From an uncultured Prochlorococcus sp. (GTDB lineage: Bacteria; Cyanobacteriota; Cyanobacteriia; PCC-6307; Cyanobiaceae): DNA of 64,000 bases. Positions 2,320-5,586 of this stretch are shown piece after piece. The stretch is from contig NZ_CACMSM010000009.1 of NCBI RefSeq assembly GCF_902616385.1, forward strand, positions 1-64,000. Direction: 5' to 3'. The first letter of the stretch is position 1. Each line of letters begins with the position of its first letter. Made by a program: the position numbers and the translations under genes. The notes under the pieces were generated by a model, which had not been told where the DNA came from, made no database searches, and saw only the letters and a program-made list of their open reading frames with translations.

Positions 2320-2460
2320 GTCCCCACTCAATTTCTTGTCTTTTCCGCCTTCTTCCTGTGTATTATGGAGGGGTTTCGTAATCGATTGCAATAACTGGGA
2401 TCTCAGAGATCAGCATTTTGTCTTAAATTCATATATATTTAACAAAGATTGTCTTCAGTA

Positions 2461-2652
2461 ATGCCACTATCGTCATACAGGATGCATAGGATTTATCTAG
2501 CAGCGACCATGAATTATGGTCTGGGTTCTGATGATCCAGAGGAGTTAGCCTACTACAACAAAATCAGAAAAGAGATGGATGATATGAAAAAAGAACCAGT
2601 TAAAAAAGGGATACCCCTTAATTGGGATACCCACAAAGGAATGGATAAATGA
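2461..2652 (+). CDS. Microprotein A1 (63 aa, duplicated family)
   Basis: Unrecognised protein. I chose the ATG at 2461 over an upstream TTG at 2449 because the second copy (5312) keeps this ATG and the sequence from here on. The protein is polar with a YRMHRIYLAATMNYGLG segment near the N-terminus, then an acidic/lysine-rich stretch (DDPEELAYYNKIRKEMDD), with no signal peptide or membrane segment. Its stop overlaps the start of B1 by four bases (ATGA), so translational coupling is likely. Conservation of frame between the two copies supports coding. Confidence 0.65.
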   Translation: MPLSSYRMHRIYLAATMNYGLGSDDPEELAYYNKIRKEMDDMKKEPVKKGIPLNWDTHKGMDK

Positions 2653-2744
2653 ATCTGAATACTTTTTTATTAATTGATGGGAGTCTGATGCTTATTGGTC
2701 TGCCTTTGCTGATGATTCTGAAAGGCAAAAAACAGACTCCCTGA
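2649..2744 (+). CDS. Single-pass membrane microprotein B1 (31 aa)
   Basis: A 31-residue frame overlapping A1 by ATGA. Residues 5-24 form one hydrophobic helix (FLLIDGSLMLIGLPLLMILK) followed by a basic tail (KGKKQTP), as in a small inner-membrane or thylakoid peptide. The second copy at 5500 has nearly the same sequence with mostly silent or conservative changes, which supports that it is translated. Function unknown. Confidence 0.6.
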   Translation: MNLNTFLLIDGSLMLIGLPLLMILKGKKQTP

Positions 2745-2748
2745 GTAT

Positions 2749-3531
2749 CTACTTAACTGCGAAAGTCACTCCCATAACCGCAGTGATGTCTTTCTTGATA
2801 GTTGAAGTGTCATAAGAACCCCAACTACTTACCTTCGTGGAATTCGGTACTGTTATCTGAAAAACACCGGTATTCACTCTCTTTAAACCACCAACTTCAG
2901 ATCCTGCCTCAAGAGCGATAGCTTCAGCCCTAACTCTTGCATCCTTTGCTGCCTTAGCAAGCATATCAACTCGTTTATCAGCCAGCTTTGAATAGGTGAA
3001 TTCAGGACGGCTTGGTTTCACCCTTACCCCTTTCCCAAGCAATTCTGTTATCTGACTATGAGTCTTCTGGATGTTATAAACATCCCTACTTTCAATCTCA
3101 ATATTTTGATAAGTAATCCATTCAGTTCTAATGATTTCATTGGTCTTTGGATGCTTGGTTTTATATTCACTGATACTCGCAGGTCCAAGATAAACATCCT
3201 GCTTTACACTGTCCTCAATTCCATTGGCTTTAAGGAAATTCATTGTCTTTTCCATTGACTCTTTATGCTTGGTAAATGAGTCAATCTGGGTTTGACCTGA
3301 GGTCTTTACCTGGACTGACCATTTTGCAATATCACTCTCGAAACTTTCAGTACTTGCACCTGTAACAGTGATAGTATTCTCAACGGTTCTGAACCCTCTT
3401 ACAAGGACCGTAGAGGCACCTATAAATCCTCCGAGAGATAAGACAGCCATTGCGAAAACAAGTGGCGGAGTGCGGCGTATAACGCCCAGAGAATCGCCCG
3501 GCAGCGACCTTAGTCTCTTAATAATTTTCAT
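2749..3531 (-). CDS. SIMPL (DUF541) domain protein, membrane-anchored
   Basis: 260 residues. An N-terminal hydrophobic segment (about residues 25-47) after a basic head suggests a signal anchor. The remainder matches the SIMPL/DUF541 pattern: ITVTGASTESFESDIAKWSVQV near the start of the domain, and a C-terminal region with DARVRAEAIALEAG. Family members are periplasmic or outer-membrane proteins of poorly defined role. Its stop lies 4 bases from the end of B1 on the opposite strand, so the two transcripts converge with no spacer. Confidence 0.85.
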   Translation of the reverse strand: MKIIKRLRSLPGDSLGVIRRTPPLVFAMAVLSLGGFIGASTVLVRGFRTVENTITVTGASTESFESDIAKWSVQVKTSGQTQIDSFTKHKESMEKTMNFLKANGIEDSVKQDVYLGPASISEYKTKHPKTNEIIRTEWITYQNIEIESRDVYNIQKTHSQITELLGKGVRVKPSRPEFTYSKLADKRVDMLAKAAKDARVRAEAIALEAGSEVGGLKRVNTGVFQITVPNSTKVSSWGSYDTSTIKKDITAVMGVTFAVK

Positions 3532-3774
3532 TGTCTATCAGTATGTGTGTAGGAGCTTTTTAACAGCTGAACCGAAAGAAAATATTAGAAAATCCCCTGA
3601 CTTTTATCCCTTCAGTTCTATCTGGCCATTAATGGAAACATCCAACTCGGATGTGCCAATTTTGGAGTCGGTTACTAATATTGCCAAATGAAATAACGCT
3701 TCGCAAGAAGTATATTTGTATTACGAAAATGACTATAAAGAACTAGACAAAATATTTAAATAAAATTCCCTTAT

Positions 3775-4326
3775 CTAATCCCAGCCATAAGGAAAAAACT
3801 TTCTGCATCCACCTGAATCAACAAAGAACCCTTCTGATGCATCAATAATAGTTTTCATTTCTTTTGATAATTTCTGTCTTCCATATTGTCCCTTCTCTGT
3901 AAAAGGAATTGAGTAGTAATAATTTTGAGAAAGTTGCGGCATCAATGCCCTAAATTTTCCAGATTTTCTATCTTCTTTTGAAGTCGCTCTTGCTAGTTGA
4001 TTGCCAACAAAATTCATAAAATGTCCTGTACCTATTTCTTTTGTATTTTTTGTTCTTTCCTGATAGGTTTTTTCTTCGTTTAACAATTCAGGTGAATATG
4101 ATCTTGCATTGTAATACTGACCTCCATATCCATTCCAGATACCCACATAGAAACCTAATGATGGTTTATTTTTATAATTTAGAGTTCCTATTCCACCAGC
4201 GGAACCAGTATATTTCAAAGTTATAGTTACATCTGGTTCAACTTCACTTGTAAGAGTACAAATTTCTTTAGCTATTACTGGAGAAGTAAAACCTAACAAA
4301 AGTGGTATTAATAATAGGCGTTTCAT
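3775..4326 (-). CDS. Secreted hypothetical protein (183 aa)
   Basis: It begins with MKRLLLIPLLLGFTSPVIA-K, a clear signal peptide with an Ala-x-Ala-like cleavage site near residue 19. The mature part is rich in Tyr, Gly and Lys and has two cysteines that could pair (one near the mature N-terminus, CTLT, and one near the C-terminus, GGCRKF). I do not recognise the family. Its start overlaps the stop of the upstream secreted gene by ATGA, so the two form an operon. Confidence 0.7.
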   Translation of the reverse strand: MKRLLLIPLLLGFTSPVIAKEICTLTSEVEPDVTITLKYTGSAGGIGTLNYKNKPSLGFYVGIWNGYGGQYYNARSYSPELLNEEKTYQERTKNTKEIGTGHFMNFVGNQLARATSKEDRKSGKFRALMPQLSQNYYYSIPFTEKGQYGRQKLSKEMKTIIDASEGFFVDSGGCRKFFPYGWD

Positions 4327-4640
4327 TTATCCTTTTTTACTTCAGGGAAACAATCTGGAAAGATATCCAGGACTTTCCCAATAGCATTCATTTGATCTTC
4401 TTGTATGTTTTTTTTATTTCCATGAGCACGTTCATGGAGGTTTAGAGCAAATCCCAACATATCTATTTTCTGTTTCATAGTTATGTGATTTCGATCTACT
4501 GCATAGCAGACAGAAAGAACTTGACCAAGCAATATTTTATTAGCTTCAATATCACTCATTTCAGATGAAACTTTTTCATTGGCATTAAGAGCATTAGGTA
4601 ATGCCAAGGAAACCAGCAGTGGTAGCAGTAGGCGTTTCAA
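4323..4640 (-). CDS. Secreted small hypothetical protein (105 aa)
   Basis: Starts at a TTG placed 2 bases after the DUF3764 stop codon. The TTG is preferred because it restores the signal peptide MKRLLLPLLVSLALPNALNA, cleaved around residue 20. The mature part is helical and charged with two cysteines (VCYAV, DCFPE). The leader is almost the same as that of the next gene (MKRLLL). It forms a leftward three-gene operon with DUF3764 and the following secreted gene. Confidence 0.7.
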   Translation of the reverse strand: MKRLLLPLLVSLALPNALNANEKVSSEMSDIEANKILLGQVLSVCYAVDRNHITMKQKIDMLGFALNLHERAHGNKKNIQEDQMNAIGKVLDIFPDCFPEVKKDK

Positions 4641-4642
4641 AA

Positions 4643-4927: not shown

Positions 4928-4951
4928 AAAAAAAGGAGCTAATTGCTCCTT
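4928..4951 (-). terminator. Terminator-like hairpin abutting the DUF3764 start codon
   Basis: Stem AAGGAGC/GCTCCTT with a 5-base loop, followed on the minus strand by seven T residues that run directly into the ATG at 4927. The left arm on the minus strand contains an AAGGAG Shine-Dalgarno-like word. It may be the end of an upstream leftward transcript, or a leader attenuator for the DUF3764 operon. Confidence 0.6.
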
Positions 4952-5029
4952 ATTGTAGATCGACTGTCAATCAATATAATTATCCCACAGCAGTAATATC
5001 ATCTACCAAAAAGTGGACTCAAGATAAGT

Positions 5030-5112
5030 TGCAGCACTCCCTAGAAATAATTTGACAGCCACAGAAAGGCCGTCTAAATTTATTTTGCACACTTCAGAAT
5101 CATTGTGCTGCA
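5030..5112. ncRNA. Candidate structured RNA upstream of tRNA-Thr
   Basis: A perfect 8-base inverted repeat (TGCAGCAC 5030-5037, GTGCTGCA 5105-5112) encloses a hairpin GACAGCC/GGCCGTC (5054-5074, one mismatch). The right arm can alternatively form a local hairpin GCACA/TGTGC (5087-5108). No coding frame is present. Strand and transcription are unknown, and chance is not excluded. Confidence 0.3.
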
Positions 5113-5151
5113 GGTAGTCTTGATTGGTCCAACCCGGCCCACTTTAAAATT

Positions 5152-5223
5152 GCCCTTGTAGCTCAGCGGTAGAGCACTCCCTTGGTAAGGGAGAGGTCTC
5201 GGGTTCAAGTCCCGACGAGGGCA
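5152..5223 (+). tRNA. tRNA-Thr (GGT anticodon)
   Basis: Complete cloverleaf: acceptor GCCCTTG/CGAGGGC with discriminator A, a D-arm containing AGCTCAGCGGTAGAGC, anticodon stem CTCCC/GGGAG with loop TTGGTAA (anticodon GGT), and a T-arm with GTTCAAGTC. CCA is not encoded. The second copy of the A/B cassette begins about 20 bases downstream. Confidence 0.97.
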
Positions 5224-5311
5224 CTTGAGCATTTGATTAATATAACTGAGATCTCATAGATCAGCATTTTAAATAGAATTCGACTATATTAAATATAGTT
5301 TGCCTTTTGTA

Positions 5312-5476
5312 ATGGCACTATCGTCATACCGGATGCACAAAATATATATTGCAGCAACCATGAATTATGGTCTTGGTTCTGATGATCCAGAGGAATTGGC
5401 CTACTACAACAAAATCAGAAAAGAGATGGATGATATGAAAAAACAACCAATTAAAAAAGGGATTTCCCTTAATTGA
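5312..5476 (+). CDS. Microprotein A2 (54 aa, duplicate of A1)
   Basis: Near-identical to A1 from its first residue (MALSSYRMHKIYIAATMNYG) through KKGISLN. It ends nine residues earlier because the A1 tryptophan codon TGG is TGA here. As a result it no longer overlaps B2, and about 23 bases separate the two. It is probably still functional, since most of the protein is intact. Function unknown. Confidence 0.6.
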   Translation: MALSSYRMHKIYIAATMNYGLGSDDPEELAYYNKIRKEMDDMKKQPIKKGISLN

Positions 5477-5499
5477 GATACACCCTAAGGAATGGATAA

Positions 5500-5586
5500 A
5501 TGAACCTAAATACTTTTTTATTAATTGATGGGAGTTTGATGCTTATTGGTCTACCTTTTTTGATGATTCTTAAAGGCAAAAATTGA
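5500..5586 (+). CDS. Single-pass membrane microprotein B2 (28 aa)
   Basis: Duplicate of B1: the same hydrophobic helix (residues 5-24, with one Leu-to-Phe change) and a shortened basic tail (KGKN). Conservation at the protein level between copies is the main support for coding. Function unknown. Confidence 0.6.
   Translation: MNLNTFLLIDGSLMLIGLPFLMILKGKN

Follow-up and report, generated by a model that had tools for sequence, protein, structure and literature searches.

A duplicated pair of overlapping small reading frames beside a tRNA integration region of Prochlorococcus: apparently translated, possibly membrane-linked microproteins

A 64,000-nucleotide stretch of an uncultured Prochlorococcus sp. 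(the whole of the DNA analysed, hereafter the window; part of contig C9 of a 1.50 Mb genome) carries two copies of a cassette made of two very small reading frames, A and B, which raises the question of whether these frames encode proteins, what the pair may do and why it is present twice. Copy 1 (2391-2744) and copy 2 (5242-5586) showed 87% identity over 341 nt, a search of the whole genome found the cassette exactly twice with no third copy, and the homology common to both runs from about 70 nt 5' of A through the end of B. In copy 1, A (2461..2652, + strand) encodes 63 aa and shares the bases ATGA with B (2649..2744, +; 31 aa with one hydrophobic stretch). In copy 2, A (5312..5476, +) is cut to 54 aa by a change of TGG to TGA, with a second in-frame TAA downstream, and B (5500..5586, +) encodes 28 aa. 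Each copy begins with a 5' module (2391..2460 and 5242..5311, both +) containing a palindrome, GATCTCAGAGATC at 2399-2411 and GATCTCATAGATC at 5250-5262, respectively. An earlier sequence-only reading had described a duplicated cassette in which a palindrome lies upstream of a soluble frame, A, and a single-helix frame, B, as well as the ATGA overlap of copy 1 and the early stop of A in copy 2, and all of these features were confirmed. With about as much confidence as doubt, we read A-B as a translated, translationally coupled, membrane-linked microprotein operon whose copies are either participants in island recombination or caught up in it.

Selection on the two frames was evaluated in 115 copies from high-light Prochlorococcus, as we presume the genus that includes strains MIT 9302, 9401 and 9314 to be. 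The set comprised 87 loci of named genomes, 26 regions of other genomes and the 2 window copies; two matches to a distant A paralogue were removed, and four pairs represent the same copy sampled twice. The A relatives came from a scan of named genomes in which the best 80 of 193 were kept, all 80 labelled Prochlorococcus or Synechococcaceae. The ratio of non-synonymous to synonymous substitution rates (dN/dS) was calculated for the 104 of 115 copies in which the alignment of A covered 62 residues or more and B lay at +188, and 99 of these are distinct. Between the two window copies, dN/dS was 0.12 for A (54 codons) and 0.07 for B; pooled over the distinct copies, it was 0.136 for codons 1-53 of A and 0.109 for B, as compared to 0.53 to 4.0 for the remaining frames of the cassette, with variation concentrated at third positions. 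The ATGA junction was present in 95/99 distinct copies. A stop inside A was found in six of the 99 (five in the tail, one in the core), B being open in all six, while B itself contained a stop in two copies and lacked its ATG in two. These data indicate that A and B both look translated, under purifying selection specific to their frames. The earlier claim that substitutions keep both reading frames is upheld for the core of A and for B, but not for the last codons of A, since codons 54-62 gave a dN/dS of 0.53 among the distinct copies, i.e., weak constraint at the protein level.

An AlphaFold2 model of A, built from 40 high-light sequences, showed helices at residues 5-16 and 26-44 with a predicted local distance difference test (pLDDT) score of about 90 over residues 1-40 and low values beyond, and A is accordingly modelled as a soluble two-helix hairpin with a disordered tail. 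B is probably a single-span membrane peptide. Searches of A and B against PHROGs, NCBIfam, Pfam and PADLOC gave no convincing match, nor did the A profile match any solved structure convincingly, and a Foldseek search with the A model returned 41 matches, all weak and none reaching E 0.001. The best Pfam match of B (E 0.05) was to an unrelated anchor motif, which places B in no photosystem or cytochrome subunit family.

The weakly constrained tail of A contains a putative ribosome site for B. AAGGA lies 8 nt 5' of B's ATG in 63/99 copies, AGGA or AAGG lies at 8-9 nt in 3 more, and 8/99 have no GGA upstream of B's ATG; as a control, AGGA was found upstream of other ATGs of the cassette in 8/1046 cases, although the copies are not independent. 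In copy 1 this Shine-Dalgarno-like site reads AAAGGA (2635..2640, +) and is located inside A. AAGGA at a spacing of 8 nt was retained in five of the six copies with a stop in A, including copy 2 of the window.

The same tail may serve the opposite strand as well. A SIMPL (DUF541) gene (2749..3531, -) converges on copy 1, with 5 nt from its stop to that of B, and 117 nt beyond its end the minus strand of A's tail carries a GC-rich stem of 9 pairs (2632-2609) followed by a U tract, which together form a predicted intrinsic terminator for SIMPL (2602..2632, -). At least 8 of the 9 pairs were present in 48/52 copies beside SIMPL versus 17/48 other copies, a contrast for which p ~1e-7 overstates the case because the copies are related and their tree is poorly resolved (4/94 inner branches starred). 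In the SIMPL-side copies, the share of cells that pair is 94% for the minus strand, 74% for the plus strand and no more than 73% when the arms are slid, and pairs 3 and 6 are formed chiefly on the minus strand, as G-U. Two of the three SIMPL-side copies with a stop in the tail keep 9 (L139) and 8 (L091) hairpin pairs (L and G numbers are our labels for loci and genomes), and L107 retains 9. In copy 2, away from SIMPL, the hairpin has decayed and the early stop lies within its stem, while B's ribosome site is kept. Since tail-stop copies still hold hairpin pairs, the tail of A seems to be needed more as RNA than as protein, and beside SIMPL it is predicted to encode the SIMPL terminator on the opposite strand. 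The A proteins of nine other genera, whose genomes are 1.7-2.0 Mb and which we take as low-light Prochlorococcus, mostly lack this tail, ending near residue 54.

How widely the two proteins occur bears on what they may do. A was found in 221/266 genomes of the high-light genus at E 0.001, some via weak or broken matches, and in 81/87 good genomes; homologues exist in the nine further genera as well. Across the order, A was found in 60/186 genomes at least 98% complete and in 10/28 genera. B was found in 69/205 genomes of the family at E 0.01, many of its low-light matches being weak or within long frames and possibly due to chance; firm matches were those in 49 high-light genomes and in G316, G268, G348 and G349. 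Of 55 high-light genomes at least 96% complete, 49 carried both A and B, two A only (G009, G149), none B only and four neither (G043, G096, G112, G261), a tally that presumes that the B search accounts for every high-light miss. In G348 and G349, which belong to one genus, A was not found even at E 1. No convincing match of A was obtained in viral contigs, with either single-sequence or alignment queries, or in plasmids, and none of A or B in phages, where one chance match appeared at E 2. A second high-light A paralogue (MAISHYRKQRIMLLARLNLGLASED...) was observed at L147, L148 and L150-L152, with about 45% identity over the first 40 residues.

This distribution can be read in another way, namely that a membrane complex of photosynthesis or respiration has A and B among its small accessory subunits, which is close to the photosystem accessory pair of the sequence-only reading. 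B presumably resembles such subunits in its size and single span, and A-B is near-universal in high-light genomes; however, neither Pfam nor NCBIfam linked A or B to such a subunit, and A had no match in 18 of the 28 genera of the order searched, which also carry photosynthetic and respiratory membrane complexes. We therefore keep this explanation as an unlikely one, although it survives better than the other alternatives.

Why the cassette is duplicated may be answered by its location. The similarity of copy 2 begins at 5242, 17 nt past tRNA-Thr(GGT) (5152..5224, +), in line with the roughly 20 bases given earlier, and a 15-nt 3' fragment of tRNA-Tyr (5128..5142, +) lies farther upstream, which we interpret as an integration junction. 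Copy-2-type cassettes (n=55) are defined by a conserved 65-nt element, 'dn', on their 3' side (5601..5665, +, in the window), for which no Rfam match above threshold was found. Upstream of these, both tRNA-Tyr and tRNA-Thr are whole in 20/55, a 3' piece of tRNA-Tyr is present in 14/55 (tRNA-Thr being whole in 12 of them, among which is the window), only a 3' piece of tRNA-Thr precedes the cassette in 12/55, and other states account for 9/55. Partial tRNAs thus mark the boundary in 26/55, which bears out the proposed integration at the tRNA; tRNA-Tyr and tRNA-Thr both seem to act as points of integration, with copy 2 as their flank. Because both are whole in 20/55, copy 2 does not look like the cargo of an element.

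In contrast, copy 1 with SIMPL is the flexible part, often near genes that we label defence-type. With families taken from nine examples and some stretches shortened by contig ends, such a gene was found at most 3 kb upstream in 32/55 SIMPL-side copies versus 3/55 copy-2-type cassettes; near SIMPL-side copies these comprise methylase, Vsr, Z1, MORC-like ATPase, AIPR, T5orf172, DUF2130 and helicase genes. In the window, a helicase gene truncated by the contig end (1-2060, -), with PDC-S37 (a phage defence candidate) as its best PADLOC match (E 9.5e-59), is located some 400 nt upstream of A in copy 1. In 8/31 genomes searched (G001, G005, G006, G007, G008, G019, G022 and G031), a SIMPL-side copy has an integrase of 320-359 aa at a distance of 9-15 kb; G023 has a fragment at the same distance, and none was found in G030 and G033. 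SIMPL was present in 13/13 genomes chosen for having copy 1, ending beside B in 14/14 places, and was not found in 15/15 genomes chosen as copy-2-type only (three behind deletion-type copies, 65-82% complete, and 12 others, nine of them picked by the length of B alone), nor in G009, G043 and G096. In G001, two SIMPL-side copies are separated by 21 kb, and in low-light G268 about 8 kb separates SIMPL from B. Upstream and downstream types are mostly in parental combination, with hybrids in 4/115 (copy-1 upstream, copy-2 downstream) and 6/115 (the reverse). The hybrids and the SIMPL pattern fit exchange between A-B copies, and independent insertions could also explain them. At L138 (G033; 2857-12854), genes that by eye resemble those for a cyanate transporter and cyanase were seen between two oppositely oriented A copies.

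It could be argued from the same location that A and B are passive passengers, kept as recombination homology beside an integration site, their proteins hardly mattering: the copies flank a flexible segment, upstream and downstream types recombine, and broken copies occur. The frame-specific purifying selection and the presence of A relatives at other sites in low-light genomes speak against this, and we regard it as quite unlikely.

In the low-light genomes A and B have other neighbours. A directly follows a small acidic ORF, C, in G266 and G267, and an ORF that we presume to be SWEET-like in G270 and G316, each with a TAATG junction; at six loci it precedes, again through TAATG, ORFs of 39-87 aa that mostly have one hydrophobic stretch. 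In G362 and G363 a 285-aa ORF begins 3 nt past A, at three loci A lies 80-100 nt upstream of tRNA-Gly, and at other A loci (e.g., L036, L037) no such neighbour was seen. In G316, B is flanked by a 48-aa ORF and C, with overlaps of 4 nt; in G268 it directly adjoins a 186-aa ORF, and in G348 and G349 it has no such small-ORF neighbours. Members of family C (L182-L201) mostly end in PPHY and often overlap the stop of a small ORF by ATGA. As A and B occur separately and with varied partners in these genomes, A-B appears to be one combination among several and is unlikely to be an addiction pair. The weakest alternative, the toxin-antitoxin-like pair of the sequence-only reading with B as membrane toxin and A as antidote, has the overlapping gene order, the small hydrophobic B and the island location with defence-type genes in its favour, but it is very improbable given that B occurs without A in two genomes and A apart from B in low-light relatives, that the pair is not patchy among high-light genomes, that no convincing phage match was found for either or plasmid match for A, that A is broken in copies where B stays open, once in its core, and that neither matched a known toxin or antitoxin in PADLOC, NCBIfam or, over the cut-off, Pfam. 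A broader possibility, which we put forward tentatively and would sooner doubt than hold, is that the microprotein modules of Prochlorococcus (A, B, acidic C and several one-span membrane ORFs) are like a deck of cards that recombination re-deals into stop-start-coupled pairs (A-B in high-light genomes; X-B-C, C-A and transporter-A-membrane ORF in low-light ones), A serving as a shared soluble adaptor while its small membrane partners change.

Returning to the coupled soluble/membrane pair, which the analysis supports as first proposed, we suggest that ribosomes finishing A restart on B at ATGA, aided by AAGGA in A's tail. A would act at the membrane with B, or with other small membrane peptides in low-light relatives, and the pair may be an accessory or regulator of a membrane complex, a reading based on the hydrophobic span of B, the repeated small hydrophobic neighbours of A and their conservation. 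In SIMPL-side copies, A's tail would double as the opposite-strand SIMPL terminator. There may be two copies because the locus lies at the tRNA-Tyr/tRNA-Thr integration region, one copy bordering the core chromosome and the other moving together with SIMPL as part of the flexible DNA; recombination between the two could remove or duplicate the intervening DNA. Several points weigh against this reading. Neither family nor fold searches gave A or B a match that suggests a function, stop-start overlaps are common in compact genomes, and the dN/dS values come from intact-spacing copies, so that dropping the other 11 of 115 favours intact copies. As for the terminator, the copy 1 hairpin beats shuffles modestly (11/200 were as good), pair 2 is AU instead of GC in 4/51 copies, all four close relatives, three of the five early tail stops sit in SIMPL-side copies, and the contrast between copies depends on relatedness, a tree-aware test having one supported pair and no power.

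Between the copies lie SIMPL, two ORFs without a family, a DUF3764 gene (4643-4927) and tRNA-Thr; a second gene at 6850-7134 resembles the DUF3764 gene by eye, and an Yfr8/9 RNA lies at 13483-13708. The palindrome with its 3' flank had 2 matches in the window versus 0.04 expected, and the 5' module was recognisable in 80/115 high-light copies, with no recognisable form in 35/115. The palindrome was rejected as an RNA hairpin, since its folding was no better than that of shuffles, and a mobile mini-element was rejected because just the two copies were found in the genome.

Overall, A-B would offer an entry point to a family that nearly all high-light Prochlorococcus carry and that matched nothing in the family libraries searched. 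If the reading is right, a single short stretch combines the roles of protein tail, ribosome site and terminator for the opposite strand, and the cassette marks a slot where streamlined genomes exchange defence-type genes. A literature search found no publication evidently about the pair; supplements lay outside it, and absence from print is not claimed. Like type II toxin-antitoxin operons, A-B consists of two small overlapping genes; unlike them, its pairing is not obligate, its distribution is not patchy and no family matches. Studies of small proteins in cyanobacteria and of small ORFs and Yfr RNAs in Prochlorococcus describe very short conserved ORFs, some in genomic islands, one of which, Norf4, has a transcript overlapping an opposite-strand gene (PMC5126843, PMC2518516). 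A-B resembles these ORFs in being very short, conserved and island-linked, and differs in being two coupled, duplicated ORFs without a library family. Among the tRNA-linked elements of Prochlorococcus are tycheposons, reportedly described in Cell in 2023. Genomic islands of Prochlorococcus are also known from other work (PMC2518516, PMC7522525). The locus shares with the islands described there the tRNA 3' fragments at its boundary, an integrase 9-15 kb away in some genomes and flexible cargo, whereas A-B is not the element itself, since it flanks the site even in places where neither tRNA is truncated.

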